Origin: Lactarius indigo
Taxonomy: Eukaryota > Basidiomycota > Agaricomycetes > Russulales > Russulaceae
Reading direction: 5' to 3'
Length of the DNA stretch: 64,000 nucleotides
NCBI GenBank assembly: GCA_025766275.1
Contig: JAFKAC010000107.1
Coordinates: 1-64,000 of the forward strand
The position numbers and the translations under genes were made by a program. Every line of letters begins with the position of its first letter. The first letter of the stretch is position 1. Below the pieces are notes generated by a model. It was not told the origin of the DNA, did not search any database, and saw nothing but the letters and a program-made list of their open reading frames with translations. This document shows, one piece after another, positions 16,497 through 53,032 of this stretch.

Positions 16497-19339
16497 ATGG
16501 CATCGACAGAGACACAAGCACCGAAACGTCTTTTAAAGCCCACCTCGTTATTTGCTTCCAGACGCATCTCTATTTCAGGTTCATCCGAGTCCTCCCGCTC
16601 TTCGACACCACTGAATCCCTTCGCATCTGCCAAGAAATTCAAAGCAGCTCTTTCATCAGAAGCCCGCACTCGAACAACTGTAAAAATAAAACCCCCTGCG
16701 GCTGCTGCTCCCCCTGCTCCAGGAACGCCGACGAAACGCGATCTGGTGAGACCTAAGACTCCCGGCACACCACGACAAGGAGAGGATGACCCGCTTCGGG
16801 ACGATCGTAGCGAGATGGATGTTAGCAGAGTCGATCCGGAGGACGTTCTTGTAGACTGGGAAACTGTCGAACCGGGCGACATCTCTGGCGAGGTGGACGA
16901 GAACTTCCTCCGCACCACCGCGAACAGCAACAAAGACGACAAAGTCCTCGTCTCTATTCGCGTGCGACCGTCAGATGCTTCCACCGCATGGGAAGCACAA
17001 ACGAACACAAAGTCAATCAAGCTCCTGCCCCAGCACCATCGCAACGCTGCGACCTCCCCTCCTATCTTCAACTTCGATGAGATTTTGACCGGTTCGGATA
17101 ACAAGTCAGTGTACAATGCCGTCGCGCGTAACCACGTGTGTGCCGCTATGGACGGCTACAATGCCGTCATCTTTGCGTATGGCCAAACGGCTAGCGGAAA
17201 GACCTTTACTCTGGTCTGTCTGTCCAATGTCCAGCATGTATTCTGTCCTGACACGTCCTGCAGTCCGGCGACGACGACCAGCCCGGAATCATCCCGCGTG
17301 CGATGAAAGATGTTTTCGCATGTATCCGCCGCACACCAGCACGCGAATATCTACTGCGCTGCTCCTATCTCGAAATATACAACGAGACAATTTATGACCT
17401 CCTCGCACCTTCCTCCGCCCCTGCCGTACAACTGCAGGGTAGCGGAGCCAATGTGTGGCTAGCGCCTCTCCGCGAGGAGGTAGTGACAAGCCTCGCGGGT
17501 GTACGTGCGGTGATTGCGCGTGGATGGGCGGCACGGCGCACGGCGAGCACCGACTGGAACGACCGAAGCAGTCGTAGCCACAGCGTGTTCCGTGTGGTGA
17601 TCGAAAGTCGAGAACGGGGTGACACCAGTGGGGGCCGGCAGACCCCAGGCTTACCGTCGCGTCCGCCAACACCCGGTGGGCCGAGGCTGCAATCGATCGG
17701 AGGACGGAGCGTGCAGACGAGCGTGCTCAGCCTAATTGACCTGGCGGGGTCGGAGAAGGCGACTTCGGACAAGGAGCGCACGCGGGAAGGAAAGTTCATC
17801 AACACGAGGTGCGCGGTTCGTTGGCCTTGATCGCTGGTTTTACGATGGTGCTTCAGTTTGCTCACGCTTGGGAGCGTGATTGCGACGCTTGCCGAAAACG
17901 CGTCGAAAGGGAAGAGGTAAATGTGGAATCACCTCTTTGGCTCGAAGTTCCTGCTGACGCCGTTAAAGTGATCATGTCCCATTCCGCAACTCCAAACTTA
18001 CGCGCATGCTTCAACCGTCGCTGTCCGGCGACGCTCGCATCTCTGTAATCTGTACACTCAACCCGGACGTCAACGCTGTCGGCGAGTCAACGAGCACGCT
18101 GTTGTTCGCTCAACGCATCAAGAAGGTGCAGCTGAACGCGAAGAAAAAAGAAATCGTTGACACCGATGCGCTCCTCGAGCGCTACCGACAAGAAATCGAG
18201 GAGCTCAAGAAGCGCCTTACAGAGAAGGAGAAAGAGGCAGAGGCTCCAGAGAAGACTCGGCGCCTCTCCGCACGCGAGGTGATACCCGGCGTCGTCGTCT
18301 TGCGCCTTGAAATCTGACTGGGATGTGCAGCAACTGGACGAGAGCAAGGCGATGAAAGACCTCAACGCGCGCATCAAACAGCTCACCAACCTTATCCTCA
18401 CGAGCCAAACAGTTGACGAGAACCGTGGGGACGAGTCTCGTCCGGCGAGTCCCTCCAAGGTCGACTTTGACATGACACCGTACCAAGTACGCTTCCCTTC
18501 TCCCCTCCCCGTTCTCTCTCACACATACACACACAGCTCCAACAAGAACTCCTCTCCGCACGCCGCGAAATCGAGTCGCAAGGGACGCAGATCCTCGCAC
18601 TCGAAGCGGCACTACAGGCACGCCCCGAGTTGCCACCCGACGCGCCAGAAAGCGAGAAGGACCGCCTGCTCGGCGAGCAAGCGCGCAACATCCGCGAGCT
18701 CGAGATGGTTATCAAAGGCTACGAGGACAACCTCGGTGCACCGCTGCGCGCTGTGCGCGAGGATGTCGAGCGCGAATGGGGCGCGCGTCTCGCGGCCGAA
18801 GAGGCGAAGCGCAAGGAAGCAGATGCGTGGGCCGCAGAGCTCGCACGGGGACTCGAGAAGGAGAAAAAGGTCCGCACGTCCAACCTATCACAACTGTTGC
18901 TGTGGGCCGACGGATCGGCTTTTGCGCGAATATTTATATATAGGCACGGCAGCAGTTGGAAGATGAACGCCGCGCGCTCGCGGCGTTCGTGACCAAGTTT
19001 GACTCACTCACCGCGGGACTCTCGTCCTCGGCGTCACTGTCGAGTCTGGTGGGCGGCGGTAGTACGCCGCCGCGCGCTGCGATGGCCAAATCGCCCCTCG
19101 CGCGCCTACCACCTATCGTTGAATCGCCCTTGCGCATGGACCTCGGCGGCCTGCGCGCGGAGCCGAGCCTACTGGAGGAGAAATGGGACGCCGTAGGCGG
19201 GCTGTCGTTCGACGACGAGAGCTTCGAGGCGGACCGCGCACTCGGCAGCAGTAGTCCGAAGCGCGTGCAGAACACGGGCAAGCGAGTCGAGAGCCCAACA
19301 CGGGGAATACTAGAGGGAAAGGAGAATCTACCCGCGTGA
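16497..19339 (+). CDS. Kinesin motor protein, kinesin-7 (CENP-E/Kip2) type
   Basis: Microtubule motor ATPase. Seven exons (16497-17213, 17264-17808, 17857-17916, 17969-18278, 18331-18486, 18537-18869, 18953-19339) join in phase to give 835 residues. An N-terminal Ser/Pro-rich extension of about 145 residues precedes the motor, which begins at KVLVSIRVRPS. The P-loop GQTASGKT lies at about 228-235, switch I is NDRSSRSHS, switch II is LIDLAGSEK, and the microtubule-binding helix reads VPFRNSKLTRMLQ. The neck and stalk are predicted coiled coil (EELKKRLTEKEKEAE). The motif order and the VIESR strand after switch I fit kinesin-7, which in fungi includes Kip2-like motors with N-terminal basic extensions. 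The tail is short for CENP-E. Subfamily assignment is moderate; the kinesin call is firm. Confidence 0.93.
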
Positions 19340-34625: not shown

Positions 34626-35132
34626 GTGATATGTCTGTTTGTCTGTCCGTCCGCTGGCACGTGCGGACGATCTTCTCTTTTTCATAATCTTCTTTTCGAT
34701 ACAAACTTTCATACGACCATATTCACGCTACACATATCCGAGCGTCTTGATCTCCCTTGGATAGCAGTCATCGACTGGTCTTGCTTGACCCCCAGCCCCA
34801 CACCCGCAAGTGTCTAAACGTCATGTTTTGTTATGTTTTCCCTTGCACGACTACATTGCAAGTGACGATGCGAAATATGTTCTCTGCTTGTGATTTCCAC
34901 ACCGAATGCCGACGTCGCATTGTTCGTATGAGAGCTTCCCAGCTCTATCTTTATTATGTCCGTGACAGGACTCGATGATATACTCACTATAAAATATCTG
35001 CCGGCGTGTCAACAGTTGATTGCGCGCGTCGCATCGCAGCATCTCACCATAGCTTCTCTCGAGTCCTCGTCCACATTCTCTTCTCTCCCCGGTACCCCAA
35101 CGTCCACCGTCCTCTCTCTGGACCCCAGCACC

Positions 35133-35851
35133 ATGGCCACCCCGCTCCACTGCGGCTCTGAAACCGAACTCTGGATCACGTACCACCAGGCGTCGCGCAA
35201 GCACAAGCAGGTGACCGCCCAGCTGATCGATGTCGGCGAGCACAGCCAGCTACTCGTCCTCGAGGACGTTCTCGACCACATCTTCCAGCAGGACTTTGTG
35301 GACCCAAAATGGCGCTCCGTGGTGTGGTGGGAGGACTGCGCCGGAGCGCGGCTCAAGGCGAGCGACACGGTGCAAGACCTGCTCACACGCGGCGCCGGTG
35401 GGGCGCCCGGCACCGCGTTGCGCCTGATCATCGGTAAGTGAACGTCCGCGCAGAGGACCCCCCCCGCGATTCGCTTAGGAATCGCTCCGGTCCGCAGCGG
35501 ACATCCCGACGGCCCTCTGGGTACACTACGAATACACGCGTTGCGCGCGCCCGGCGCACTCCACGACGCAGCGTATCCGCCTGGACCTGCCGCACGCCAA
35601 GTTAGAGTGCCTCGGACACGTCACGAACCACATTTTTGCGCAGGGGTATCTCCCGTGCAATGTGCGTTCGTTGGTATCCTGGAAAGACGCGTGTGGGAGC
35701 CACATCGAGGAGTGCGAGAAGGTGGAGGTGCTGCTCTCTCGGGGAGAGGGAACGTGCGAGGAGAAGCCTCTGCGGCTGGTTGTCGGTTGGTGGCCTGTGC
35801 CGATTTTTATTTGATCTCGCCGCTTGCTGATGGCAATTCTCAGATCTGTGA
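35133..35851 (+). CDS. Two-module small protein, paralogue 1
   Basis: Not a family I recognise. Three exons (35133-35433, 35498-35785, 35844-35851) give 198 residues. Module 1 is encoded by exon 1 (ELWITYHQASRKHKQVTAQL to ALRLIIG) and module 2 by exon 2 (ALWVHYEYTR to PLRLVVG); the 8-base exon 3 gives Asp-Leu-stop. Both introns are phase 1. Predicted order in each module: strand, strand, helix, strand, strand, a short turn with V-x-x-L-L, final strand. This is ubiquitin-like in order, but no Gly-Gly ends the protein. No signal peptide or membrane segment. The start at MATPLHCG matches the other copies; the frame is also open upstream. Diverged from copies 3-6 and closest to copy 2. Confidence 0.85.
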
Positions 35852-37076
35852 CGACGACGAAAGTCTGTATGGTGGAAGGTCGGGAGTAGCACGGGTTATG
35901 TTTGACCATAGACCATGTATGAGCGAATCCGTTGGACCCAGAGGATTGTCACGACCGTATGATATGATGACTACGTATAGATCGACACGTTGGTTTGTAC
36001 CCACGCAATCCGAGAGCGAAGAAAAGACAAATCAGGGCACAGAGGCACCAATCGAGGCCGGTGCAAGTGAGAAGCAAGTGAGAAGAATCGTTTGCGCGTG
36101 ATGAAGCAAGCATTTGTCCGTCAGGGGGAACCCACCACGACCGAGGTCGAATGATCTATGGCCGCTGTGAGCACATATTTGCGATTGGTTGCGATGTCGA
36201 AGGCCCACCAGTTCAAATGAAAGATTGGGGATGTCTCGTCACCGCAGAGCGGAGAACACAGGATAAAGACATTGTGACTTTATAGGTGGGGTCAAAACAC
36301 ATGAAAAGTCCGACTTCCGGAAAGTCGCTCAGTGAATAACGTCTCCCAGATACCACTGGGAGTGGAGAGAAGATTGGCACATCGACGAGGCGAACTGGTT
36401 AATGACAGGGTCATAATTAGGAGGAGAGCTTCTTTTGTGGGACAAGCGTGATGCTTCTTGTTGCCTTTCATCTTGTCTTTTTATGGTAAGTCTACTTCCT
36501 ATATCTTACTGTCCTTTTGTTTCCATGCCTACCCGTGCTTGCACTGTGGACGGACGCTAGGAAACGCCACAGCGGATTCAGATGGACATAACTAGTCTCT
36601 GGGCGGCAAGCGACCCCGCGCATGACAGCTCGCTGCTCGTAGCTCAGTATTGTCCTGCGTCATGGCTTTCCTTTATGCGACTCATACTCAGACTCAAGTC
36701 GCTTCGAAGACTTCTGAGCCTTAGAAACCTCACCACGATAGCAAAACGGTTTCACTCGTGGCTATGAATCTGGAGGGTGTTTTAGAGTAGATTTGGCAGC
36801 ATAGAGGCACCACATTGGCATCAGTAGCCGACACCAAATATTCGTTTGTCGCCGTCGCGGATGTCGCAGCAATTGAGAACCCGCCAGTTCCGTTTCACCC
36901 GCCCTCCTTTCACAGTAGCCGACGGGCCATAAAAAGGGCCCGTGAGGGGGCCCGACATATTGTCACACTCTACTATTCCAACCATAGATTCCTCAATCTC
37001 TCCCCATTCGCTCTCTTCGCTTTCCAGCACACCAACTTCGACCCTTCTCTCTGCATTTGGCTTGGACGACGACGAC
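35852..37076. other. Intergenic between paralogues 1 and 2
   Basis: No gene seen. CATAAAAAGG at about 36928-36937 could be a TATA box for copy 2. The 60 bases before the copy 2 start resemble those before copy 1 (pyrimidine-rich, with caccaacttcgaccc against ccccaacgtccaccg), which shows that the duplication included the leader. Confidence 0.55.
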
Positions 37077-37784
37077 ATGTCTGCTGCTGCACACGTACAC
37101 TGCGGTTCTGAGCTCTGGATCACGTACCACCAGGCGTCGCGCGTGCAACGTCAGGTGACTGCACAGCTCATCGACGTCAGCGACGGGACGCACCTGCACG
37201 ACCTCGAGGATGTCCTCGACCACGTCTTCCTGCAAGGCTTTGTCGACCCAAAATGGCGCTCCGTCGCCTGGTGGGAGGAATGTACCTCCGCGCGGCTCAA
37301 GGGAAGCCACGTCGTCCAGGAGCTGCTCGCACGGGGCATTGGAAGCACTCCCACGTCCGCACTCCGTCTTGTCATAGGTACGCCTAACTCCCCCATGAGC
37401 GAAGGGCGGAAATGCGAATGACGTGAATTTTTTGTAGCGGACATTCCGGCGGCCGTTTGGGTGCACTATGAATATGCCCACTGCGCGCGGCACCAAACTG
37501 CGACGCAGCGCATTCGCCTCGATGCGCCACATATGAAGGGTTGTGAGCGCCTCGCGCACATCACCAATTATATCTTCGCGCAGGGGTATCTCCCTTGCAA
37601 GGTCCGTTCGTTGGTGTCCTGGAAAGGCGCGTGTGGAAGGCACCTGGAAGAGAGTGTGAGGGTCGAAGACGTCCTCTCTTGGGGAGAGGGTACTTGCGAG
37701 CACAAGCCCCTGCGACTCGTGATTGGTGAGCACCCAGCTACGAGATGACGCATGTTTTCTAATCGGGGCATTGTAGACATGTAA
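37077..37784 (+). CDS. Two-module small protein, paralogue 2
   Basis: Three exons (37077-37377, 37438-37725, 37777-37784) give 198 residues, with exactly the same exon lengths (301, 288 and 8 bases) as copy 1. Module 1 runs from ELWITYHQASRVQRQVTAQL to ALRLVIG, module 2 from AVWVHYEYAHC to PLRLVIG; exon 3 gives Asp-Met-stop. Direct tandem partner of copy 1, about 1.2 kb downstream. Cysteines are more frequent in module 2 here (CARHQT, GCERLAH, CKVRS, ACGRH) than in copies 3-6. Function unknown. Confidence 0.85.
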
Positions 37785-38029
37785 CGGTGTCGATTGTGAG
37801 GTTTAATCCCATAACAACATACAAACTACAGTCGTTCCTTACTCTCGCCAGTGGCATTGTGTTCTTTATACCCTCATTAGCACAATGGAATTATACCTGT
37901 CCTTCGACTTCGGCAGTAACAAGTGATATCTTTACCAAACAAAGAATGGTAAGATGAAGTATATTGCTACATATCGTACAAATGTGACCCGACCGATATA
38001 ATATATTTTACGTGTTGTGAGTAAGCTCG

Positions 38030-40298
38030 TTAATCTAACACTGTGAGTCCGTCGTAGCTGGGCTTCTCGAGCGCGCGCTTCATAATGGACAATGGGGTCA
38101 TCTCTGGTTTCCGGGGAAGCTTCACCTCTTCGCCTTTTTCGTCCACCAAGACTGTATCGTCATCCAACGGCTCCTCTACGTCTTCGCCCATAAATACCTT
38201 CATCATCGCAGGATTGAACCCGCTCATGAGAGCAACTCCCTTGCTTTCTGCTTCAACAGGCGCCGTCTGGAGCTCACCCGCGAGGTTCCAATACACGATC
38301 TCTGGTACATCGTACCCCGCATCCTCATAGGCCCGCGCGATCGCATCATGATTGGTCACCCAAGCTCCAGGGTCCTCCTTCGCGGGCTCCGCGGCATCAA
38401 ACTGCATGTCAGAAAACACGAAGAGACGCTTGACCATGTCTTCTCGCGGCACGCGGTGCTGCACGGCCAGCGGGAGCAGTAAGCGGACAAACACGGCGTG
38501 CAGATTCGTGTTCGATCCCCACGAGCTACGTATCATCGCCGCGACGTTGGCCGAGACTCCCGCGCCCTCCTGGAGCGTAACGATTTCGGGCTCCGCGGAG
38601 AAGGTGATGAACACGTTCGCAAATGGCGGCTTGGCGAGCTGAGCGAGCACCATCGAGAGCGCCACGGCGGGGAGGATGGGCTGCGTCTCTGGGTACTGCC
38701 AGTAGATGTCGCCCATCGACCCGGAGACGTCGCAGACGGCGAGGGAGTTGTCTAGCGTGCCGGCCTCGCGTAGCCTAGCAAGCATCGCGTTCCATTGCGC
38801 GTCCACGACCTGCGCCTCGCGTCGGGCGACGCGCGCGCGGAACCCAGTGGGAACGGAGCTGCTCCAGGGTTTCATCTGCTCGTAGACGGTCGGCGCGATG
38901 GCCTTGGCCACCAGCTCATGTGGGAGGAGCGTCGCTCCGGAAATCTGGACCTTGCCTTCGGCTACGCTCTCTAGATAGGCATCAAATCGTTGGCCGTCGT
39001 TCTTGAAGAAGTTCTTGCTGTTGATGTGCATGCATTTGGACGGGACGTGTTTGTATGAGACATCGCCCCAGCGGCGCGCGGCCATGAGGGGCTCCGGAAC
39101 GCGGGACGAAGCACGTAGCGGTGTGAGAACCCAGCGTTGGTAGAACGAACGAAGGACGTGCACATCATCTCCTGAAACAGCGGCAGAGGCGTCGATCGAC
39201 CGAGAAATGGACGACATGACGCCGCCACGATACAGGAGTATCGCCACAGCGGTAGAGATGTTTGTCACTCTATCGTGCGAGGCCGAAGGTGTAGGTGCCC
39301 ATTTTCCGACGAAAGACACCTTTCTCAAGATACGGTCTCGCTCCTCGCCGTCTGCAAGGGTTTCTGCTCTGCGCATGAGAGATGCTTGCTCGACGAGCTC
39401 GTCTGAAAGTAGGCGTGCGACGGCAACATAAAGAGCGCGGAAACGACGCTCAGAGAGCTTGGAAAGCAGAAGCTGGTGGGACTCTGCTGCATTCTTAACG
39501 CGGCGCTCACGTGCAATGGCCCTGGCTTTCTGGTTCCTGTCTGCAAAAAGTTCCCTGACTTGTTCTGCGGTCATTCCGGAGAGGCGCTCGGTGGTTGTGA
39601 GTCTTTTAGGACCAACGGATTGCCCTCGAGCGGAGGGTCCCCGAGCGACATGCAAGAATGGAGCGGGGTAAGTGTCAAGTTGTTCAAGGGTGGCGAGGGC
39701 AAGAATATTGAGAAGATCTTTCCAGTAGCCATGCGGCATCTGGGTAGACTTGGACCTGGACTTGACGACGCAGAGAGGAGCCACGAGCTGAGAGAGGTTC
39801 GCAATTGCCGTACGCGGGTGGTGCTCATAGAGCCAGCCAAAAGCCCTGGATGTATGCATCGTGGTTAGCAGATTGAACGCACAAGAGCTCGGGGACGTAC
39901 TTGTAAAAGAGCTCTTTATCACCCTTACCATCGTGTATGCTCCGCGTGTTCCAGATGATCCTCAAGGCGAGGCCGGGGTCCTCTTCCCATGCCTTGGACA
40001 GCACAGCGTTAATCCTCTCTCTGGGCATGTGAAGAGACAAGCTCTGAAATGCGTCAAGTGTGTGCGAAAGTGTCGAGTTGAATGCCGGCGCTGAATTTTG
40101 GGTGTACTTTCGGTGCGCAACAGACTTGAGTGCATTCATGAAGGTATTCTCGGGCTCCGGTGCGTCGACGTTCATAGTATCAGGGGTTGACCGAGGCGGA
40201 AGTAGAACATCGAGAAAGTCAGGGTCAAAGAGCTCAGGGATGTGGGGGAGCGTGACGATCTGAGAGGTGGAAGCTGCGCCAGAAGCCGAAGCCGACAT
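38030..40298 (-). CDS. DUF2828 protein with von Willebrand factor A-like domain
   Basis: Two exons, 40298-39901 and 39845-38030, join in phase to 737 residues. The start is the ATG at 40298 (MSASASGAAS). The N-terminal half is helical and contains WNTRSIHDGKGDKELFYK and AFGWLYEHHP, characteristic of DUF2828, which resembles TROVE/Ro60 RNA-binding proteins in layout. The C-terminal half is a vWA-like domain with the metal site DVSGSM (LAVCDVSGSMGD) and later LFVFSDMQFD. Known members are cytoplasmic fungal and plant proteins of unclear role, possibly binding RNA. It lies between the two subclusters of the small-protein family. Confidence 0.88.
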
Positions 40299-40718
40299 TA
40301 TTCTCTGCGGGGGTGGCAAGAGAGGATGAGATGCGGCCTCCCATAAGAGCCAATGGCTTATATCATTCTGGGTCTAGCGGTGGCTGCGTCGCCTAGTCAC
40401 TCGGGTTCAGAGGGCGACTCGACTGGTGACTCGTGCTGCACTGCCCCCGGAGATGTACCTGCACCCAACATGGTAGCGGTACTGTAGCGCCTCTCGACTC
40501 CCGAGCCTTTGATGAGGCTTGCTGCCGTCACCGTACTGCCCACTGAGAACGGCTGTTAGGTAAGAGTTTGTACTGCGCCTGCAACTTACATCCTTTTTGC
40601 GGCTGTGCCCGACGATGTCCCTCCTTCCCGTTTCGTATCGACAGTCTTCCTTCTTTGATCTTCTGCCTCGCTCATGCCACCCTTTCTTTAGACTATTTTG
40701 ACACCGCACTCAGTTCCC

Positions 40719-42208
40719 ATGAGCACAGAAAACCCTCTTCCACTTTATGCCTTTGAGCCAGGAAGCTTACCCCCGATCCGGAAGCCTGTCGATGACTATG
40801 ATTCCGACGACGAACGTCCAGGCAACCCACGCCGGTGGTACCATTACGTGCCCTTGTGCAGTGAGTCAACTCACTCTCTGGGCAGGTCTCATTCGATTAC
40901 TGATGTACACACATCGCAGTCGCGGTCTTGCTCCTGCTTGCGCCTCATCCCTCCATCTTGCACGTCCTCCTCAACTACCACTACCTAACCCTCCACGCGA
41001 CGCGCTACTTCCTCGCCCACCTCCTCGTTATCTATACCCTTTCTTTCCTTGCATTCAGCTCACTCATCGTCTGCGTGGCGCGTGACCCGGGACCTGTGCC
41101 TGAGGCAAAGCCAGAGGTACAGCAAGACGCGGATGGCGAGATCAGCTTCGAAGACGCGCTCCTCAGCACACCACCGGAAGACTACACGCAGCCCGGGAAG
41201 TGGTGCCGTATTTGCTGGCGGCCCAAACCCGAGCGCGCACACCACTGCTCCCAATGCGGGCGGTGCGTGCTCAAGATGGGTGTGTGAGGCCACCGATCCC
41301 CCCGTGGCACGTCGTACTCACGCCTACTCCGCGCGTGGTAGATCATCACTGTCCCTGGATGGGCGCAAAATGCATCGTGCGCACCTTTATTCCGCGGTAG
41401 CGCTCATTACTGACGCGCGAGTGCACTGTGTAGGGCTTCCGAACGTATCCGTCTTTTCTGCATTTCTTGGCGTCTGTCACGCTCCTAGCGATCTACATCG
41501 CCGTGATATGCATCCGCGGGCTCAACTTTGCGTTTAGACATCCGCTTGCGATCGTACGTGTTGAGCTGGACTCATGACCGATATCGACGACGAATCCCCT
41601 CCCTTTTTCTCTCCAGAACGAAATCACGCCCGTGCATATGCTTTTGCTGTCCTTTGCCGGTTGCGCATTTACGCTCATCATGGGCTCTTTCTTCGGCTAC
41701 CACGTCTACCTCCTCCTGTACGCTCTCCCTTCCTGCTCGTTGATATTTTCGAACAAAGACCTCTTTCCTAGCACGAATCAAACTACGCTCGAACACATCT
41801 CGCCGTTCTATATCTTGCGGTACCTCCCCCCGCTCCCATCGGGCCGCCTCTCGAGCCCGCCACTGGAGCACCAGCTTGCGTCTGGGCAGCGTCGCGCAGT
41901 CCGCGCCGTCCACGCGCGCCTGTACTTATACGACGTTGGCTGGCGGCGCAATGTGGAGCAGGTGTTTGGAATGGGGGCGAAGCGGCGGTGGCAAGCATGG
42001 ACGGGCCGATTGCTTTGGGGCGGTGGTTGGTACGTTCGGTGTCCATTTCGCCGCTCGCCGCTCGTCCCACTAATTCTCGCGCCTGTGGTTGCATGCTTTT
42101 GTTTTTAGTCATGGCACAGGAACACAGTTCCCGCGCAACCCTCGTGCAGAGGACGTACTCGCGGAGTTGGCGGCGGAGTTAATCCGGATAGAAAATGGCA
42201 CAGACTGA
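40719..42208 (+). CDS. DHHC palmitoyltransferase
   Basis: Transfers palmitate to cysteines of membrane-associated proteins. Seven exons (40719-40860, 40920-41279, 41342-41376, 41434-41553, 41617-41717, 41772-42029, 42109-42208) give 371 residues in frame. Two membrane segments precede the Cys-rich domain CRICWRPKPERAHHC...CGRC and the catalytic DHHCPWM, which begins exactly at the start of the 35-base third exon. Two more membrane segments follow (LASVTLLAIYIAVICI and LLLSFAGCAFTLIMGSFFGY), then the TTLE motif (TTxE, common to the family) and an NPRAEDVLAEL tail. Topology and length fit a Pfa3/Pfa4-like enzyme; the exact orthologue was not determined. Confidence 0.92.
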
Positions 42209-42363
42209 GGTGTCTGGTTAGGTTTTGGACTCTACGATTACTCGCACGATATATATACCGTTCTTGCTGTATTTCTTGTCAGTATATATTAAAGCAAGCC
42301 AAGAATACAACGTCAGAGATATTTGGCTACATAAAAGTACATGGTGGGAGGGAAGCCGCATTA

Positions 42364-44025
42364 TCACCGCTCAGCATACTCGGTCGTGTCCTGATGTCGC
42401 CACCGCCTTAGTGGCCCCCACCACCACAACGAAGAATTCGTCTCTTCTGGATTTTGATTCGCCCCGGGTTGCCGGTGCTGGGGCTCCCTCTCGCGTTTTG
42501 TTGTTCTCTCCGTTCTTTCCTCCTCTATCACCACACCTTCCGTCCCCCTACTCTGCCCATGGCGTATCAGCCGCTCAGCGCCCTCCATCTCATATGCACC
42601 TGCGGCCTCCCTCTCCCTCTCCCGTACCCCGAAGGATCCGAGAGCCCATCCCGCGTTTGCGGGCACGTCCGCCGGCGGGCCGTCGACGCCAAACACCTCA
42701 CGGATATGCTCTGCACGCTCCATCGCGCGGCGGCGGGCGGCACTGACGTGGGCGTTACAGACGTAGCGATAAGCCCTTTGCGCGAGGGACCACGGCCAAT
42801 ATCTGCCATTGACTTGGGTATCGTTTTGTCCTCTCGTCGAGGTATCGCCGGACTGCGAAGACGCAGGGAGGGAATCGGTGTCTGAGCCCCTCCCCCTCCT
42901 CACCGTCGTCGTGCTGGACGGTGCCTTCTCCACAGCAGAGGTGGTAGCGCGGCCGCCGCCAGCGATGGCGTTCCACGCACCGCGAAGACGCTCTTTATGC
43001 TCCTTCCTGCGCGCATCGCGAGTTGCCCGGCGCTTACGGCGCTTTTCGGAGCGGCGGAGCCACTCGCCGACCTCGCCTATGCCCATACCCGCTCCGACCC
43101 ACCACCACCAGCCAAAGAAGCTCTGCCAGAGGATGACGGCGCCGGTCAGGCCGGGCACCCATTCGAACTGGTCGCGTGAGGGTATGTACGAGATCGTGAG
43201 GGCAGTGTAGGCGAGTGCGAGCAGGATCGCGCCGGCACCAAAGGCCGCGGTGCCACCGTCCGTGCGCCACGCTTGCTTGCGGTTCACGACGAAGCCCCAG
43301 ATCCCGAGCGAAAGCGTGAAGAGGATGGAGAGTGTCGCATTGCAAACGTTTCGCACCGCGCTCGCCACGGTGTTGAACTGCTGGCCTGGGTGGAGCGGAG
43401 CAAGCTGCATCCCTGCGGCGATAATGGCGAGGGGGCCGAGTAGGATGAAAATGAGCTGCGCCTCGAGGCGGGAGGGATACATAAGGGAAAGGAATTGGAT
43501 GTGCGTGATCTGTAAGAAAAAAAAAGTATAGACGAATTAAGATGGGGAACCTTGCCACGGGGTGAGTGGGCGGCGTACCTGCGTAAGTGCTGAAACTAGA
43601 GCGTTCATGAGGAGCCAGGTGATCAGCCCTCCCTGTGACCAGCCGGCTTCGACGCGAGGATCGTTGAGAGGGGGTAAATCGAAGGCAATATACTCGAGCA
43701 TAAATGGCCAATTTTGGCTTTGTCGCATCGTGTCATTGAGCAGGAGTGTGAGAGAGGCGATCTCCGATGCGAGGAGGACAACAGCGGCGGATAATTGGAG
43801 AAAAAAATTTACGCGTGCGAGACGGACATGGTAGGGGGCGGTAAATAACAGCTGGATGAGAAGAATGCAGACGAGGGTGAGTGTGATACCGTTGATGAGG
43901 ATTTGAATTGGGAGAGAGCGGGCGAAAACAGGACGATATGAGAGATAAGGGTTGGTGGTGTAGCCACTGTAGTCGAAGAGGTCAGCGGGGGGAACAAACT
44001 CTGGGGGAGGGTCAGACAGACCCAT
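42364..44025 (-). CDS. Multipass membrane protein of unknown function
   Basis: Two exons, 44025-43579 and 43509-42364, join in phase to 530 residues. The start is the ATG giving MGLSDPPPEF. About seven hydrophobic segments lie in the first 330 residues (for example LINGITLTLVCILLIQLLF, FFLQLSAAVVLLASEIASL, LITWLLMNALVSAL, IFILLGPLAIIAAGM, LSILFTLSLGIWGFVV, AGAILLALAYTALTISYI, AVILWQSFFGWWWWVGAG). A charged cytosolic tail of about 200 residues follows (ERLRGAWNAIAGG and later acidic/basic repeats). The arrangement recalls a seven-helix receptor or sensor, but no motif of a known receptor family was seen. Convergent with the palmitoyltransferase gene, with 155 bases between stops. Confidence 0.8.
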
Positions 44026-44162
44026 CGTGGGTGTGGTTTGTTGCAACGCCTCGTTTGGGCATTCGTTGACACTCTCTGCACCTTCGTCTTGGCAAAACTG
44101 ATGTAATGCGGAATTGGTCTTGGCCCACCTTATTGGCCGCTTGGGGGCTCTCCGTGCCGCAC

Positions 44163-44471
44163 TCACGCAAGTGCACTGGCGCAGCCTCTACAGCTAGTGA
44201 TCAGAGCGTGGGTGTTGTGGAGTCGTGGATACGCGTGTATGGTCTGCTGAGCAGGGCTGGTTACGCCCGAGTCAGCCTGCACACCAAGTCGGGACCATCC
44301 GAACAACGACGCCGAGTAGCCCGAGGGTGGCTTGTAGAATTCAACCGGCCCGCCCCCGAAACCTCTGGCTTTGGTGAGCATAGGCGTTGACTCCCTTGCC
44401 CCGCCACCTGCCTTGAGATTGTCTATCACATCTACGAAAGCGCTCGATCCCCATCGCTTTTCTGGCTCCAT
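44163..44471 (-). CDS. Possible small protein
   Basis: A 102-codon frame from an ATG, MEPEKRWGSSAFVDVIDNL, then LTKARGFGGGPVEFYKPPSGY. The first 60 residues look like a real small protein; the rest may be intron or 3' sequence. It lies 138 bases upstream of the membrane protein gene on the same strand. Not recognised. Confidence 0.4.
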   Translation of the reverse strand: MEPEKRWGSSAFVDVIDNLKAGGGARESTPMLTKARGFGGGPVEFYKPPSGYSASLFGWSRLGVQADSGVTSPAQQTIHAYPRLHNTHALITSCRGCASALA

Positions 44472-45423
44472 GGTATTTTCCTTGATCGCAGCTCAGGTCT
44501 CGGACCCAAAATTCTATCAGCCCAGAGGATTTTAAGGACCTCAGCCTCTTTTATAGTTGCGTCTGTTTCGCATTGGTTTTTTATTCTTTCTTTCGTTGAT
44601 GTTTCGTGTCCGTGCTAGTAGAGATGTGGGTGGGTGCCGACATCGCGCGACGCGGCCCTCGTCCTGCGAGCAACTCGGATGTGGGTTCTGCCACCGAAAG
44701 ACCCATTTTTGAACGATACTTCACCATCACTGAGCGGGGTGCGTGGCGGATGTCCTCGAACGGTGCGGACTGCGACCGAAGATAGACTCACGGCCGCACC
44801 ATTGGACGCTCATCCGAGATGAGCAGCTGAAAATCTTGGAAGCACTGGTCTCCGTCGCCGAGTCTTCTCGCTGCTGCTAGAGTATCTCTCCACTGGCTTC
44901 TGGTCGCACAGCTCCAAAAGCACACGGTCGACGCGACGACCTTATCACATCAGAGAAATATATCTGGGGCTGCTTAGACCGTAGAGACGAGCGGCACGCA
45001 AGACCCTAGTCTTTCATCGCACAGTCCTTGGTGCTGGGCGCGAGAACGACGCGCGATGTCTGGTGAGATGAGTAAGCATCAGCATCTATGTTACGACGTT
45101 ATTTTCACCAGCAGTCTTTCTGTGGGTATCACAGGTATTGTGGGTGTGTAAAATAGGATATGTGGCCAATCCTCGAACAGAAATGTATCCCACGGTGTAG
45201 CTTCTCTCAAGAATAATCTCATAGATCAAGCACCTCTTCCGCCCATCCCTTCAAAAACACACACACTTGACTAGACCAACATTCATAACGTTGGACATGG
45301 CGCACCAGAAAAGGAAAAGAAAAATAGAATAAAGAGTGTGTGTAGCTCTAGCTATGACAGCGGCAGTTACGGTAAACTTTCTTTTCGGATCCCAATTCTC
45401 AATTACAACAGATTTGCATGCCT
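44472..45423. repeat. 3' flank of paralogue 3, repeated at paralogue 5
   Basis: No gene. From about 44980 on, the sequence aligns in the same direction with 49400-49879, which is the 3' flank of copy 5 (shared stretches such as gtctttcatcgc, agcttctctc and gacagcggcagttacggtaaa against gacagcagtagttacggtaaa). Confidence 0.65.
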
Positions 45424-46169
45424 TTAGAGGTCTATAGGTTTTCGTCAGCGTCCGCTAAGACAGCCTTGCCATTGAGGACTCACCAATTACGAGGCGCAGG
45501 GGCTTATCCTCACTAACACCCTCGCCAGAGGAGAGTAAATCGTCGACTCTCGCATTCTCTGCGATGTGCCTCCCGGATGCTCGCTTCCACGAGACCGCTG
45601 ACCGCACCTTGTTGGGCAGATACCCTTTGGCGAAAATGTGGTTGGTGATGTGGGCCAGGCGCTCGAATTTGGTGTGAGGCAAATCGAGACGGATGCGCTG
45701 CACGGAAGTATGGGAGTGCCTGTCGTGCAAGTACTCATAGTGGACCCAAATAGCGACTGGGATGTCAGCTGGTTCCGGGAAGCCGCGTCAGCGTACCGCA
45801 CTACGAAAACAAAAACAACAAAAGCATACATATGACAAGACGCAGAGCAGTTTCGGGGGTGTTTCCGGCACCGTTTGCAAGTAGGTCCTTAACGGTGTGG
45901 CTTGCCTTGAGGCGTACCGAGTCGCAGTCTTCCAACCAAACGACAGAGCGCCACTTGGGGTCGACGAAACCTTGTTGGAAGACGTGGTCGAGGACGTCCT
46001 CGAGGTCGAAGAGCTGGGTACCGTCGCTGATTTCGATCAGCTGTGCGGTCACCGGCTTCTGTGCGCGCGATGCCTGGTGGTAGGTGATCCAGAGCTCGGA
46101 GGCGCGGTGAACAGAGACTACCCCTGCGTCAACGGGGATGAGAGATGCATTGGTAAGGACAGGGAGCAT
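45424..46169 (-). CDS. Two-module small protein, paralogue 3
   Basis: Exons 46169-45830, 45768-45484 and 45431-45424 give 210 residues. The N-terminal leader MLPVLTNASLIPVDAGVVS is longer than in copies 4 and 5. Module 1 runs from ELWITYHQASRAQKPVTAQL to ALRLVI, module 2 from AIWVHYEYLHDRHSHT... to PLRLVIG; the last exon is Asp-Leu-stop. Phase 1 introns as in the rest. TATAAAAG (minus strand) at 46246-46253 lies 77 bases upstream of the ATG. Pairs with copy 6 across the palindrome. Confidence 0.87.
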
Positions 46170-46245
46170 GTTTGAGACTAGAAAAGCTGGGTGTTGTGAA
46201 GAGGAATTGAGATGTGATGGGTAAGTAGCTGGCTTGCTGGCTCGT

Positions 46246-46253
46246 CTTTTATA
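46246..46253 (-). promoter_or_regulatory. TATA box of paralogue 3
   Basis: TATAAAAG on the minus strand, followed by gacgagccagcaagccagc. The same block occurs at copy 6. Confidence 0.65.
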
Positions 46254-46259
46254 GAGAAT

Positions 46260-47825
46260 TAGCAATCCCTGAGGGCGACTAATCCGGTTGGCAAGCTCAA
46301 GCCCTGGCAGGCTCTAGAACAGTCGGGGGCTAGTAAATTTGGGACAAGTCGCAACATTATTGATCGCCATGCTGCTGGACACTCACGCTGTGGACGATTT
46401 TACAATGTAGGTCAATTCAGTTCTGAAAATCTGACCAAAGACGATTTTAGAACCGAATTGGATGCCACCGTGAAATCCCCGCAGTGTCAGTGGTATCGCC
46501 GCTGAAGAGGACAGACGGAAATCCAGCGGAACAAAGAATTGTAATTCAAGAACAGACGCCCGTGATTCAGCTGGCGTCTAGCAGCGGATGGCGATGCCCT
46601 CAGGGCTACTGTAACAATACGTAGTCGTGGTGGGTAAGCACCTCTTCTGGCGTCCAGGTCCTCCGAGTCATTGGCAAGACAAGACTGGTGAGGCCGGAAC
46701 ATATCCTAGGCATTTACCGAATTCTGACCCCAGACAGAGACGGAGACCAATGAATATACTGTACTCAAGCCCGCAATGTGGTGGCAACTCCGGAGTTACA
46801 GCTTCTTGTCGCCGTCAGGGTCATATATCCAATCTACTTTGACAGTCGGCAGCTGCAAATATCACGACCGGTAGGGTCGTGTGAATCGAATACCGGGGTC
46901 CGGCGTTCTTTATGTCCCGGCTTACAGCGATGTCCCAGCACAAAGTGAATGCGTCTTGTTGGGACCAACATCACACCACTTCGCAAATTACAGGTACGAA
47001 CATTATTGGTAAGTTACTTGATTTTTTTCACCGCCAAGATACTTGGGGGGTGCGGAGGGGAGTCCCAGGGCGTGCAGATACCCGATCCAAGCTGTAGAGC
47101 TTCAAGTCGCGGTAGAGTGTAAACATTGGCCGCAGTGGCCAATCCGTCCTCGTTCAATGAAGCCCACGGAGCCATAGAGACCATATTGTCTCCGTGCGAC
47201 GGTTTTTCTGGGACAATGCTCGTGGGAACAAGCCCGAGATCGTCGAGCTTTTTCAAATTGAATTTGTTGAGGAACTTGAATCTGTGTCCACAACCCATGA
47301 CGAAGCCAAACAACGTAAGCAACCCTCTTGATCACGGGGTCGAAAGAATTTTGATCCGCAATGCAGTTCGCAGGTTGACACGGAACAACACATCCGTCCT
47401 CTCTATCTGCCTGGGTCCGTCCGTATAACATTTTCGTGAAGTCATCGTTCACCCCAGATGCACATGGTCAGGCACTAGTCGCCCTACGAGTGTCTGTGTC
47501 CTTTGTACCTTAGTGGATCTGGACACATGAAGGCCCCACCCTTCGGTGTTAGCCTCTGGACGACAACTCTTTGTCCGCACGAGCGGAAATGTCACGGAAT
47601 GTCTGACGGCATTATTTACTCCCAACAACTTATCTAATCTCTACTGGTCTCTGATTGTCGAGTCTGCAATGAATCGACCTTGCTAGCGTCCTGGCCAACC
47701 GTGTGTATTCCAATTTTCTATATAAGATGTACCAACATGCTAGTTACTTGCTCACCGCACTTCGACCTCTCGGATCTTCCATATACACTCTCTGCACCTT
47801 CCTTGCTTTATTCTTCGTCGTAGCA
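46260..47825. repeat. Spacer between divergent paralogues 3 and 4
   Basis: No convincing gene. Reading its reverse complement, it aligns almost end to end with the spacer between copies 5 and 6 (about 50700-52215), for instance gcttcattga...gacggat...ggccactg near 47140 and 51370, and ttgaattacaa.tctttgttccgc near 46530 and 51930. A possible TATA for copy 4 is TATATAAG at 47719-47726. Confidence 0.7.
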
Positions 47826-48539
47826 ATGGCCTCAGTTCAGCACACCCCCGAGCTCTGGATCACCTACCACCAGGCATCGCGCGCACAGAAGCCCGTGACC
47901 GCACAGTTGATCGAAGTCAGCGATGGCGTCCACCTCTTCGACCTCGAGGATGTCCTCGATCACGTCTTCCAGCAAGGCTTCGTCGACCCCAACTGGCGCT
48001 CTGTCGTCTGGGTGGAGGATCGTGACTCCAAGCGTCTCAAGACGAGCCACACCGTCAAGGACCTGCTCGTTAACGGTGCTGGAAACACCCCCGAGACTGC
48101 TCTTCGTCTTGTCATCTGTGGGCTTACTTTTTTTTTTTTTGTTTACCGTGCGTGCGGTACGCTGACGCGTTTAACCCAGCTGACATCCCAGTGGCAATTT
48201 GGGTCCACTACGAGTACTTGCACGACAAGCACTCCCATACATCTGTCCAGCGCATCCGCCTCGATTTACCCGACAACAAATTCGAGCGTTTGGCTCACCT
48301 CACCAACCACATTTTCGCCAAGGGGTATCTTCCCAACAAGGTGCGCTCCGCGGTATCGTGGAAGAGCGCGTCTGGGAAGCACATCGAAGAGAACGCGAGG
48401 GTTGACGATGTGCTCTCGTTGGGTGAAGGCGTTAGCGAGGACAAGCCCCTGCGCCTCGTTATTGGTAGGTCTACATGAACTCCGTCCGCGACTGCGAGAT
48501 AATCTTGACGGATGCTGACGAAAACTTACAGACCTCTAA
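47826..48539 (+). CDS. Two-module small protein, paralogue 4
   Basis: Exons 47826-48117, 48180-48464 and 48532-48539 give 194 residues. MASVQHTP leads straight into module 1 (ELWITYHQASRAQKPVTAQL to ALRLVI); module 2 is AIWVHYEYLHDKHSHT to PLRLVIG; the final exon is Asp-Leu-stop. Intron 1 contains a run of 15 T. Almost identical to copy 5: I count three residue differences (S/G, L/I, K/R). Helix in module 1 FDLEDVLDHVFQQG, in module 2 FERLAHLTNHIFAKG. Confidence 0.88.
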
Positions 48540-49879
48540 TCGGGTTATGCAAATCTGTTGTAACTCAGAAGTAGGAGCATCCGAGGAGAGACTTTACCGT
48601 AACTACTGCTGTCATAGGAGCTAAAGCTGCACATTCTTATTATAATTCTGTTCCATATCACATATGCTCGTATAGTCAGGTGTGTTCCTGAAAGGACGGC
48701 ATCGGGAGAGGCAGGAAAGTCAAAAGATGAAGCTGAAGGCGGATATGCTCGAGACTCGAGAGAAGCTTCTTACAAGTTCGAGAAATTGGCCACACTCCCT
48801 TGATATCCTGTTTTACACATCCACAGAACATGACACCTTTTAGGACTACTAGTAGAATTAGTATCGTAGTACAGATCCGAGTCACTGCATTGCCGGTATA
48901 TGTTGATGCTCAGCTTGCCAATCTTGGCAAGTCGTTCCTCCGCCAAATAATAAGGAAAACACGACGAAAGACCACGTCACGCGCCGTGCTGAAAGGTTAA
49001 GCACTCGCCCTAGTGGGACGATGAGTACAAGGAGCTGGTACAGTAGATAGGGTGATGTGCTTGGTGATTGGCGCCCAGTCGGCCGAAGACCAGAGGGCCG
49101 CGACTGGACACATGAAAACAGTGGCCGAGTAACGCATCTAACAAGGCCTCAGTTTTCGAAGTACTGGGAGACTTACAATATATGCCGGTACGTGCCCAGT
49201 GCCATAGCAGAACGTCCTGTCATGTGACGTATAGCAGCGGGCATGACTATCATGTGATCCGACTATCATTGCATCATCTCCAAAAGCAGACATTCGAGGC
49301 CTAAACAGGAAGATGACCAAATATGTGAGACTGCGGTTGGCACCGTTGACGATAAGTACCGTCCTTTTACCATCCCCTCAGGGCAATAGCCGTTGTCAAT
49401 GCACGTATCTGGGATCGCTTAGGTCGTAAAAACGAAGGCCACTCGAGATCATGGTCAAGGCGTCTTTCATCGCGTGATCCGTACTTGGCGCGGGAATGAC
49501 TTGCGAGACCTGACGAGCTGAGCACAGCACAAACAGGAGCATATACCCAGAATGCAGTAAGCCACGCTACGATACTACTTTCTTTGGCAGTCTTGCGAGC
49601 GTGTCCACCATAAATAGGTTCAGTGTCCGTGAGGCCAATTCCTCGAACTTATGAGAAGCTTCTCTCGAGCATAATCTCCATCCCTTGACTTTCACAACGC
49701 AAGCACTCTTCCGATGCCTGTCATTTCAAGGACACACTTGACTTCGCCTGCGCCCATGGTATGAAACAGAATTATAATGAAGAATGTGCAGCTTTAGCTC
49801 CTATGACAGCAGTAGTTACGGTAAAGTTTTTCTTCGAATGATCCCACTTCTGAGTCACAACAGATTTTACACAACCCGA
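48540..49879. other. Centre of the palindrome
   Basis: The first about 120 bases and the last about 140 bases are inverted copies of each other (3' flanks of copies 4 and 5). The middle, about 48665-49395, is single-copy in this window with no gene seen. The right part is also a direct repeat of the copy 3 flank at 44980-45423. Confidence 0.6.
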
Positions 49880-50593
49880 TTAGAGGTCTGTAAGTTTTCG
49901 TCAGCATCCGTCAAGATTATCTCGCAGTCGCGGACGGAGTTCATGTAGACCTACCAATAACGAGGCGCAGGGGCTTGTCCTCGCTAACGCCTTCACCCAA
50001 CGAGAGCACATCGTCAACCCTCGCGTTCTCTTCGATGTGCTTCCCAGACGCGCTCTTCCACGATACCGCGGAGCGCACCTTGTTGGGAAGATACCCCTTG
50101 GCGAAAATGTGGTTGGTGAGGTGAGCCAAACGCTCGAATTTGTTGTCGGGTAAATCGAGGCGGATGCGCTGGACAGATGTATGGGAGTGCCTGTCGTGCA
50201 AGTACTCGTAGTGGACCCAAATTGCCACTGGGATGTCAGCTGAGTCCGACAAGTCGCGTCAGCTTACCGTACGCACGGTGAACAAAAATAAACAAACGCA
50301 CAGATGACAAGACGCAGAGCAGTCTCGGGGGTGTTTCCAGCACCGTTAACGAGCAGGTCCTTGACGGTGTGGCTCGTCTTGAGACGCTTGGAGTCACGAT
50401 CCTCCACCCAGACGACAGAGCGCCAGTTGGGGTCGACGAAGCCTTGCTGGAAGACGTGATCGAGGACATCCTCGAGGTCGAAGATGTGGACGCCATCGCC
50501 GACCTCGATCAGCTGTGCGGTCACGGGCTTCTGTGCGCGCGATGCCTGGTGGTAGGTGATCCAGAGCTCGGGGGTGTGCTGAACTGAGGCCAT
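49880..50593 (-). CDS. Two-module small protein, paralogue 5
   Basis: Exons 50593-50302, 50239-49955 and 49887-49880 give 194 residues, with the same exon lengths as copy 4 (292, 285 and 8). Differs from copy 4 at about three residues. Intron sequences are also similar, but copy 5 lacks the 15-T run. The promoter block with TATATAAG (minus strand, 50693-50700) and the leader tcggatcttccatatacactctgc match copy 4. Convergent with copy 4. Confidence 0.88.
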
Positions 50594-50692
50594 TTCTGTA
50601 TCGACGAATAAAGTAAGGAAGGTGCAGAGTGTGTATATGGAAGATCCGAGAGGTTGGTGTGCAGTGAGCAAGTGGCCAGCACGTTTGCGCAT

Positions 50693-50700
50693 CTTATATA
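50693..50700 (-). promoter_or_regulatory. TATA box of paralogue 5
   Basis: TATATAAG on the minus strand 100 bases upstream of the ATG. The mirror-image element for copy 4 is at 47719-47726. Confidence 0.6.
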
Positions 50701-52214
50701 GAAAATTGGAACCCCTGAAGATGACAATGTTCACTAGGACGTTCTCAAGGTCGATCTATTGCAGACTCCAGAATAATCAGAGACCAGTAGAGGTTGGATA
50801 AGATGTTGGAGTAAATAATGCCGTTAGACATTCCGTGGCATTTCCGCCCAAGAGGTCAGGGTAAAGAGTTGTCGTTAGCTAACGCCGAAGGGCGGGGCCT
50901 TCATATGTTTACAGTTACTAAGTACAAGGTACAAAGCCACAGACGCTCGCAGGGCGACTGAGGCCTGACAATGTGCGTCTGGTGTGAACGTTTGAACGGC
51001 AAGTGTCACCTGCCAATGCGGTCAGTCAGTGCCAAAGGCCGGTCGGCCTGGGCGTTGCTGCGGATCAAAAAAGGACCAAGACCTGCTTACCTATTTATTC
51101 GATCTCGTGATCAAGTTTTCTTTTTCTTGGACGTTGCTTGGACTTGTGCTTGGATGTGGAAACGAAACGTACGAAACGACCACCACGGCCGCAGGTTCAA
51201 GCTCCTTGACAAATTCAATGAAAAAGCTCCATGCCGACCAATGATTCTAAGCTTGTGCTTCCAAGCATTCTCTGACATTCGACCTTGCATTCGACTGTCA
51301 CGACTCACAAGCCACAATACAGCAGTCGTCCTGTCAACCCGGAGACATTGTGGCCCCTATGGGTCCGCGGGCTTCATTGAGGACGGATAGGCCACTGTTT
51401 GAAAATCGGATCAAGTGTCTGACATATCGACTCAGGTATCGTGGGACTTGGAGTCCCCTCTACATCGGAAAACTCAATGTCAATGTTCCGAGTCGTACCT
51501 GTAATTTGTTGCTGGACTAGACGTGGCGCGATTCGGTGCCAACATGACGAATTCACTCTGCGCTGGGGCTTCGCTGCAGGCCTCGGGCTTAAAGAGCTCC
51601 GGGCTCTCGGTTCGCGGGGCCGTATCCGTACCGCTGGTGGTGTTCACAGCTACCAACTGTCATGGTAGGTTGGACATGTGAACCTGACGGCGACAAGAGG
51701 CTCAAGCTCCGGAGTCGTCACCGCTTTGCGAGCTTATGATATGTCCGTCTATGTCCGGTATGTGGTATATGCGAAGGATAGTCTATGGCTCAACCTCACT
51801 TGTGTTGTCCTGTTGATGAGGCCCATGAAGGCTTGTTCGCAAAATGAGTTTTTTTGCTACTACTGCTTATTGTTACAGAGCTGCCACCTGCAGTTGGACG
51901 CTAGCTGAATCACCGGCGTCTACTCTTGAATTACAACTCTTTGTTCCGCATGATTTCCGTCTGTCCTCTTCATCGGCGATACCGCTGACGCTGCGCACAC
52001 CTTACAATGAAATCCAATTCACTTCTGAAAATCCTGGGACCTGTTTGGTCGGTTTTTCAGAACTGAATTGGGTTACAACGTCCACAATGTGAAGTATTGC
52101 GATCAATAACGCGGCGACTTGGCTCACATGTACTAGTCCTCGACTGTTCTAGAGTCTGACAGGGGTTGAGAACTTGCCAACCAGATTAGTCGTCCTCAGA
52201 GATCACCAATTCTC
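50701..52214. repeat. Spacer between divergent paralogues 5 and 6
   Basis: Inverted match of 46260-47718. Contains no convincing gene; short frames on both strands are not shared between the two spacers. Confidence 0.68.
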
Positions 52215-52222
52215 TATAAAAA
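52215..52222 (+). promoter_or_regulatory. TATA box of paralogue 6
   Basis: TATAAAAA followed by gacgggccagcaagccagc, 79 bases before the ATG. The block is shared with copy 3. Confidence 0.65.
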
Positions 52223-52293
52223 GACGGGCCAGCAAGCCAGCTACTTACCCATCGCATCACAATTCCTCACAACTAATTTTCTTAATCTCAAAC

Positions 52294-53032
52294 ATGCTTC
52301 CAAGTGCAGCTTTCGTCGACTCAGGAGTGGTTTCTGTTCACCACACCGCCGACTTCTGGATCACCTACCACCAGGCCTCGCGCGCCGAGAAGCCGGTGAC
52401 CGCACAGCTGATCGAGATCAGCGACAGTACCCAGCTCTTCGACCTCGAGGACGTTCTCGACCACGTCTTCCAACAGGGTTTCGTCGACCCAAAGTGGCGC
52501 TCTGTCGTTTGGTTGGAAGACTGCGACTCGGCGCGCCTCAAGGCGAGCCACACTGTTAAGGACCTACTCGCAAACGGTGCTGGAACCACCCCCGAAACTG
52601 CTCTGCGTCTCGTCATCTGTATGCCTTTTTCATTTCATTATTTTTTTCTCCATGCAGTGCACTGATGTGTCTTCCCGAACTTAGCTGACATCCCAGTGGC
52701 GATTTGGGTCCACTATGAGTACTTACACGACAGGCACTCCCATACATCTGTCCAGCGCATCCGCCTCGATTTGCCTCACACCAAATTCGAGCGTTTGGCT
52801 CATCTCACCAACCACATTTTCGCCAAGGGGTATCTTCCCAACAAGGTGCGGTCAGCGGTCTCGTGGAAGCGAGCGTCTGGGAAGCACATCGAAGAGAATG
52901 TGAAGGTCGACGATTTGCTCTCCTCTGGTGAGGGTGTTAGCGAGGATAAGCCCCTACGCCTCGTCATTGGTAGGTTCCTATGAACACACTAAACTTCTTG
53001 AAAGATTCTGACGAAAACGTGTAGATCTCTGA
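52294..53032 (+). CDS. Two-module small protein, paralogue 6
   Basis: Exons 52294-52618, 52685-52969 and 53025-53032 give 205 residues. Leader MLPSAAFVDSGVVSVHHTA, module 1 DFWITYHQASRAEKPVTAQL to ALRLVI, module 2 AIWVHYEYLHDRHSHT to PLRLVIG, last exon Asp-Leu-stop. Closest to copy 3 in leader and promoter. The two modules of this copy align with each other over their whole length: Q-L-I with Q-R-I, D-H-V-F-Q-Q-G with N-H-I-F-A-K-G, R-S-V-V-W with R-S-A-V-S-W, V-K-D-L-L with V-D-D-L-L, and L-R-L-V-I in both. Confidence 0.88.

Follow-up and report, generated by a model that had tools for sequence, protein, structure and literature searches.

A gene array in the milk cap Lactarius indigo encoding mushroom proteins with two predicted ubiquitin-like domains

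Two ubiquitin-like domains (UBLs) in tandem are known from several described systems, with which we compared the products of six genes (U1–U6) in a 64,000-nucleotide stretch of DNA from the milk cap Lactarius indigo (contig JAFKAC010000107.1, positions 1–64,000; hereafter the window). The UBLs of OASL (tandem UBL, 7sbi) and non-conjugating ones such as those of Get5 and the FIP200 N-domain belong to larger proteins, whereas in the mushroom protein the predicted domain pair makes up nearly the whole chain. Esc2, Rad60 and NIP45 carry tandem SUMO-like domains, that is, two non-conjugating ubiquitin-fold domains in a fungal protein, as appears to be the case in the mushroom family, from which they differ by a long N-terminal region and by their occurrence across eukaryotes. 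Linear (Met1-linked) di-ubiquitin shares its layout and the predicted fold with the mushroom proteins, in which, however, the modules are 18–34% identical, are not ubiquitin by sequence and have no Gly-Gly between or after them. ISG15 and FAT10 are short chains of two ubiquitin-fold domains with a short linker, as is predicted here. The mushroom proteins differ from both in being fungal, in lacking a C-terminal Gly-Gly and in having no detectable sequence relation to ubiquitin; ISG15 is described as vertebrate-specific (PMC9741609).

The window holds six intact three-exon genes. Each was delimited by its reading frame and splice sites and has a counterpart on a second contig of the assembly (C237); U3 differs from the public protein model P0001 by a single residue.

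35133..35851, + strand: gene U1 (198 aa); exons 35133-35433, 35498-35785, 35844-35851
37077..37784, + strand: gene U2 (198 aa); exons 37077-37377, 37438-37725, 37777-37784
45424..46169, - strand: gene U3 (210 aa); exons 46169-45830, 45768-45484, 45431-45424
47826..48539, + strand: gene U4 (194 aa); exons 47826-48117, 48180-48464, 48532-48539
49880..50593, - strand: gene U5 (194 aa); exons 50593-50302, 50239-49955, 49887-49880
52294..53032, + strand: gene U6 (205 aa); exons 52294-52618, 52685-52969, 53025-53032

All introns were of the GT-AG type, 51–67 nt long and in phase 1, and the frames contained no internal stops. Exon 3 measured just 8 nt, comprising the remainder of an Asp codon, a Leu or Met codon and the stop, and every module closed with L-R-L-(V/I)-(I/V). 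A preliminary description of the window, made from the letters alone, had named the six starts (35133, 37077, 46169, 47826, 50593 and 52294) and the end at 53032; the frames bore these out, as they did the presence of two modules per protein. Its three exons, splice sites and module ends also held, but not the start ELWITYHQASR in all six proteins, which reads DFWITYHQASR in U6.

Splicing was checked in 28 hand-picked, unnamed, full-length environmental proteins. The junction between modules 1 and 2 was crossed without intron letters in 24 of them, whose longest contigs measured 924–1855 nt; contigs this short are probably cDNA, and would as such support splicing at this junction. Intron-derived letters were present in P0004, P0132, P0152 and P0163 (contigs of 152,024, 2,571, 29,090 and 2,378 nt, respectively). 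In the public L. indigo model P0001, intron 2 was spliced as in our gene model. Two of the three public models seen weigh against that gene model: P0003 and P0033 keep intron 2 and end in GRST and GWWPVPIFI, respectively.

The modules of U1 were located by the assembly search, the predicted model and profile comparison, and those of the other genes by an assembly search with module 1, except for module 2 of U4 and U5, which was taken from the gene model and lies outside the 20 matches of that search.

35166..35432, + strand: U1 module 1 (exon 1), predicted ubiquitin-like fold
35515..35784, + strand: U1 module 2 (exon 2), predicted ubiquitin-like fold
37110..37376, + strand: U2 module 1
37455..37724, + strand: U2 module 2
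45831..46097, - strand: U3 module 1
45485..45751, - strand: U3 module 2
47850..48116, + strand: U4 module 1
48180..48464, + strand: U4 exon 2, equated with module 2
50303..50569, - strand: U5 module 1
49955..50239, - strand: U5 exon 2, equated with module 2
52354..52617, + strand: U6 module 1
52702..52968, + strand: U6 module 2

As judged by their profiles, the two modules are diverged copies of one another. The profile of module 1 matched that of module 2 with a probability of 99.6 (E 1.8e-24), each being built from 50 proteins and the six window proteins; the mean identity of the modules inside one protein was 27%. In both modules the end falls on one shared LRLVI position with a phase-1 intron behind it, as would be expected if a single exon had been duplicated and its phases matched.

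Two AlphaFold2 models (pLDDT 83 and 91) each showed a tandem pair of ubiquitin-like domains, with the b-b-a-b-b order of about 75 residues that defines the ubiquitin-like (beta-grasp) fold; the modules are thus predicted, from these models, to carry that fold. When the models were searched with Foldseek against the PDB, linear di-ubiquitin was the first row for each (3b08, 8t48), ISG15 was among the top matches and FAT10 stood lower. Among viral structures (BFVD), the 12 rows at E<=0.001 included membrane, BTB/POZ and uncharacterised proteins beside viral ubiquitins, and were uninformative on origin. The preliminary two-module description was right but incomplete in this respect, the modules being mutually homologous and of a recognisable predicted fold.

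No credible match was found in Pfam for U1, U2 and U3 or for 34 family members, in NCBIfam for the same 34 members, or among PDB sequences by sequence or profile search. The ubiquitin family PF00240 matched neither U1–U3 (E<=10) nor any of the 34 members (E<=1), and hhalign against the ubiquitin-like sequences of L. indigo itself, in a profile comparison that left ISG15 out, gave probabilities of 0.2–0.7 percent, that is, no link. Weak hits were at chance level, among them Tox-PLDMTX (5 of the 34 members, best E 0.055), CofB pilin (3 of 34, best E 0.12) and a pair of PDB rows with E-values of 0.79 and 1.5. The Snowball family was rejected as well, since snb1 of Agaricomycetes is described as a seven-helix membrane protein (PMC10949477), in contrast to two predicted beta-grasp domains and no long helices here. 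The family was not found in the literature searched (tandem UBLs in fungi, UBLs of Agaricomycetes, the motif, the L. indigo genome), which took in few subscription articles and no supplementary files. On the strength of these libraries and this literature the family is undescribed, in agreement with the preliminary description, which knew of no named family for it; the profile search against Pfam likewise brought up no well-described one.

The end of module 2 was located in 102 of 104 proteins. A Gly-Gly followed within 12 residues in one of the 102, inside a tail, and none of the six window genes encodes a Gly-Gly end for conjugation: their products finish in Asp-Leu or Asp-Met, one or two residues past the last strand. 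Given these ends, conjugation of the ISG15 kind is unlikely. Because there was neither a profile link to ubiquitin nor a conjugating di-glycine, we favour, with a probability of about 0.5, a free, non-conjugated tandem-UBL adaptor. The two domains would form its two heads, each docking onto partner proteins that recognise ubiquitin-like surfaces. Attachment of the protein to others is most unlikely, because the chain either ends one or two residues past the last strand or runs into a His/Cys-rich tail, without Gly-Gly. The Cys/His appendage, if present, would be a handle of its own, for anchoring or for binding metal.

When the entire 90.3 Mb assembly was searched for module 1, 20 matches came up, half of them on the contig of the window (C10) and half on C237; they did not include the second modules of U4 and U5, although these are present. 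No match lay off these two contigs, with 24 candidates scored, at which depth weak copies could be missed. On C237 all six genes were intact and collinear, with equal coding lengths and no internal stops, and the two contigs were 98.0% identical over 19.9 kb, so that C237 reads as the second haplotype. Across the six coding regions the alleles differed at 29 sites, 25 of them silent and 4 replacement (pN/pS 0.049), a ratio far from neutrality (P about 1.5e-12, binomial test) when the six genes are pooled, any one gene contributing just 2–10 differences. Judged by these allelic changes, the set of six is under selection, and the constraint is strong. Pairwise dN/dS between the paralogues (Nei-Gojobori) was 0.10–0.29, values that are rough for pairs with U1 or U2, where dS is near or above 1. 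The preliminary description had proposed selection for dosage or diversity. Its selection is borne out as constraint, in the dN/dS across copies and in the pooled pN/pS; as to its purpose, the homogenisation of U4 and U5 (see below) would fit dosage and the three diverged subfamilies would fit diversity.

The appendages differed between Russulales and other orders. C-terminal tails were counted in 64 non-Russulales and 32 Russulales rows and N-termini in 65 and 33 rows (63 and 33 with anchor), unnamed environmental rows being assigned to Russulales or not by identity, at our own judgement. Outside Russulales, a tail is as a rule encoded by exon 3, which looked spliced in 41 of 64 models; 40 of 64 had a spliced-type tail of at least 6 residues. 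The pooled tails amounted to 1264 residues, with 278 His (22%) and 106 Cys (8.4%). Exon 3 looked spliced in 22 of the 32 Russulales rows, and 21 of these 22 stopped after two residues. The exception was P0017, an environmental protein 68% identical to U3, with a Cys-rich C-terminal tail of 69 residues, in which there are 10 Cys and VCKEQ is among the repeats. The other ten rows, Amylostereum included, looked unspliced or differed at exon 3 and were uninformative. A short N-terminal extension with Cys was present in 27 of 33 Russulales rows, as His-Cys in 17; the six without it were from Auriscalpium, Amylostereum, Lactarius psammicola and three of the U3–U6 clade. Outside Russulales, N-terminal Cys occurred in 8 of 63 rows, some of them with probably misannotated long starts. 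Russulales would seem to have lost the tail, as opposed to never having had one.

It is conceivable, if doubtful, that this appendage is the working part, in metal storage or sensing, and that the ubiquitin-like domains serve as its scaffold. Such a role would account for the His/Cys-rich tails outside Russulales and for the N-terminal Cys or His-Cys within it. Yet U3–U6 lack the N-terminal Cys as well as the C-terminal tail, and U1 and U2 have one HC pair each, while the six genes, pooled, are constrained; and the tails differ in length and sequence whereas the modules are conserved. Membership of the metallothioneins, small proteins rich in Cys pairs, was considered separately and rejected, the window genes having no Cys-rich stretches and the non-Russulales tails being richer in His than in Cys.

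Rather unlikely is a reading in which the modules resemble the beta-grasp domains of Ras-association/RBD proteins or of talin (F0-F1), and would bind a membrane or a small GTPase and be unrelated to ubiquitin-like recognition. Structures of the Ras-association/RBD and FERM F0-F1 kinds belong to the same fold class, and in the fold comparison of the predicted models the scores were within 1 Z of each other. Over the full length, however, di-ubiquitin and ISG15 were best in both models, with E-values two to three orders of magnitude better than talin at the head of the lists, a comparison that does not extend to single-domain RBDs. To our knowledge, moreover, Ras-association/RBD domains rarely occur as stand-alone tandem pairs, which counts against this reading.

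That the proteins are ISG15/FAT10-like covalent modifiers with an unusual processing or conjugation route is very improbable. They share the two-domain layout and the predicted fold with ISG15 and FAT10, and their C-terminal LRLV(I) is similar to the last strand of ubiquitin. Against this stand the single Gly-Gly among 102 ends, itself inside a tail, and the Asp-Leu or Asp-Met finish of the window chains; even with intron 2 retained, one Gly alone would follow the strand.

The genes U3–U6, one of two subclusters of retained copies in the preliminary description, form one nested palindrome with its centre at about 49.2 kb, as opposed to four separate retentions; six paralogues in two subclusters, as that description had them, were confirmed. 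The palindrome has two arms.

45482..48795, + strand: left arm of the U3–U6 palindrome
49629..52971, - strand: right arm of the U3–U6 palindrome

Positions 45482-46999 match 52971-51493 (77%) and 47446-48795 match 50990-49629 (87%); U3 and U4 are inverted copies too (81%). Between the genes the arms were 50–78% alike in 150-column steps. The palindrome is old and would have arisen through inverted duplications, U4 and U5 having since been kept nearly identical. The dS was 0.38 for U3/U6 and 0.023 for U4/U5. U4 and U5 were identical over 48316-48465 (exon 2), but their likeness was down to 0.78 over 48615-48754 and to 0.67 over 48755-48904. Their coding regions differed at 6 sites on the window haplotype and 10 on the other, the same number as between the alleles of U4, and at sites 135 and 381 the haplotypes differed in U4 and in U5 alike. 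Gene conversion would be the simplest reading of the likeness of U4 and U5; a second, very recent duplication whose flanks have diverged would be harder to fit. The reading of the array as an artefact of assembly, or as a functionally minor by-product of local duplication, is already disfavoured and has a very low probability: a palindrome is prone to duplication and misassembly, but the six genes are collinear on two contigs, their pooled allelic differences are overwhelmingly silent, and U4 and U5 are not one gene assembled twice because their flanks differ.

As judged by these searches, the family is widespread across Agaricomycetes. A single-sequence search gave 145 proteins at E<=0.1, a profile search 277 at E<=1 (8000 scored) and a third one, started with a divergent member, 82 at E<=0.01; the tables used comprised the best 120 of 145, the best 120 of 277 and all 82, clustered at 90%, so that copies per species are lower bounds. 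The named homologues among the matches listed were from mushroom-forming fungi: ten species that were looked up belong to the Agaricomycetes (Russulales, Boletales, Polyporales, Hymenochaetales, Jaapiales and Agaricales), and the remaining ones we take to be mushroom-forming as well. Among the matches listed, 52 named species outside Russulales had one row apiece; within Russulales, Russula vinacea, Lactifluus subvellereus and Lactifluus volemus had at least two each, L. indigo at least three and other named species at least one. A tree was built from 42 of 182 proteins and the six window proteins, the remainder being mostly single-exon fragments or near-duplicates. One group (9 rows, 96/94) united U2 with proteins from Russula, Lactifluus and Lactarius. 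In the group of U1 (8 rows, 100/100) the named rows were all from Lactarius, and U3–U6 fell together with L. indigo models, two environmental rows and a fragment from Lactarius hatsudake (9 rows, 99/99). By this tree the family falls into three subfamilies in Lactarius.

These results give a predicted fold and a testable class of mechanism to a conserved 'dark' mushroom family unnamed in the libraries searched, and a homologue occurs in genetically tractable species, such as Schizophyllum commune, where it can be tested. A comparative study of genes that are expressed in development and confined to complex multicellular species lists 172 conserved unannotated orthogroups, and takes their propensity as a sign that this development is still cryptic (PMC8893723). 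Tentatively, mushrooms may own a class of free-standing, non-conjugable double-ubiquitin-fold proteins whose Cys/His handle moved from the C-terminus, in most orders, to the N-terminus, in most Russulaceae; they might compete with or recruit ubiquitin-like signals in development or symbiosis, and in milk caps the class might have expanded within a palindrome homogenised by gene conversion. A Macrolepiota relative (P0161) is labelled 'fruit-body specific gene C', a suggestive label behind which no data were found. The name 'Fruit-body specific gene a' is listed for Moniliophthora roreri (PMC3948071), and the Morchella paper PMC8329594 speaks only of a 'gene cluster'.

Five of the six genes were preceded by TATAAA or TATATAA, 79–145 nt ahead of the start codon, with about 0.04 expected per 200 nt; U2 had only ATAAAAA, at a similar distance. 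Because the genes are related, these are not six independent cases.

34988..34993, + strand: TATAAA, 145 nt upstream of the U1 start codon
46248..46253, - strand: TATAAA, 84 nt upstream of the U3 start codon
47719..47725, + strand: TATATAA, 107 nt upstream of the U4 start codon
50694..50700, - strand: TATATAA, 107 nt upstream of the U5 start codon
52215..52220, + strand: TATAAA, 79 nt upstream of the U6 start codon

The two subclusters were found to be separated by other genes, as had been described: a DUF2828/DUF7788 gene of at least two exons (38030-40373, - strand), a DHHC palmitoyltransferase (40692-42108, + strand; Pfam match in 40904-41287) and a gene without Pfam match whose product looks membrane-bound by eye (42364-44187, - strand). 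Directly past U6 lies a gene with a KIN17 winged-helix domain (PF10357; 54089-55067, + strand). Elsewhere in the window, an exon at 15867-16088 (- strand) had a PF00240 match at 15882-15974 and a counterpart at C237:1729763; beside it is a reading frame that, by eye, is kinesin-like (16407-17306). Weak ubiquitin matches below the curated cut-off (E 0.0017-0.0041) occurred three each at G000:C79:911040-961711 and G000:C237:261615-281274, and are perhaps another local cluster of ubiquitin-like genes.

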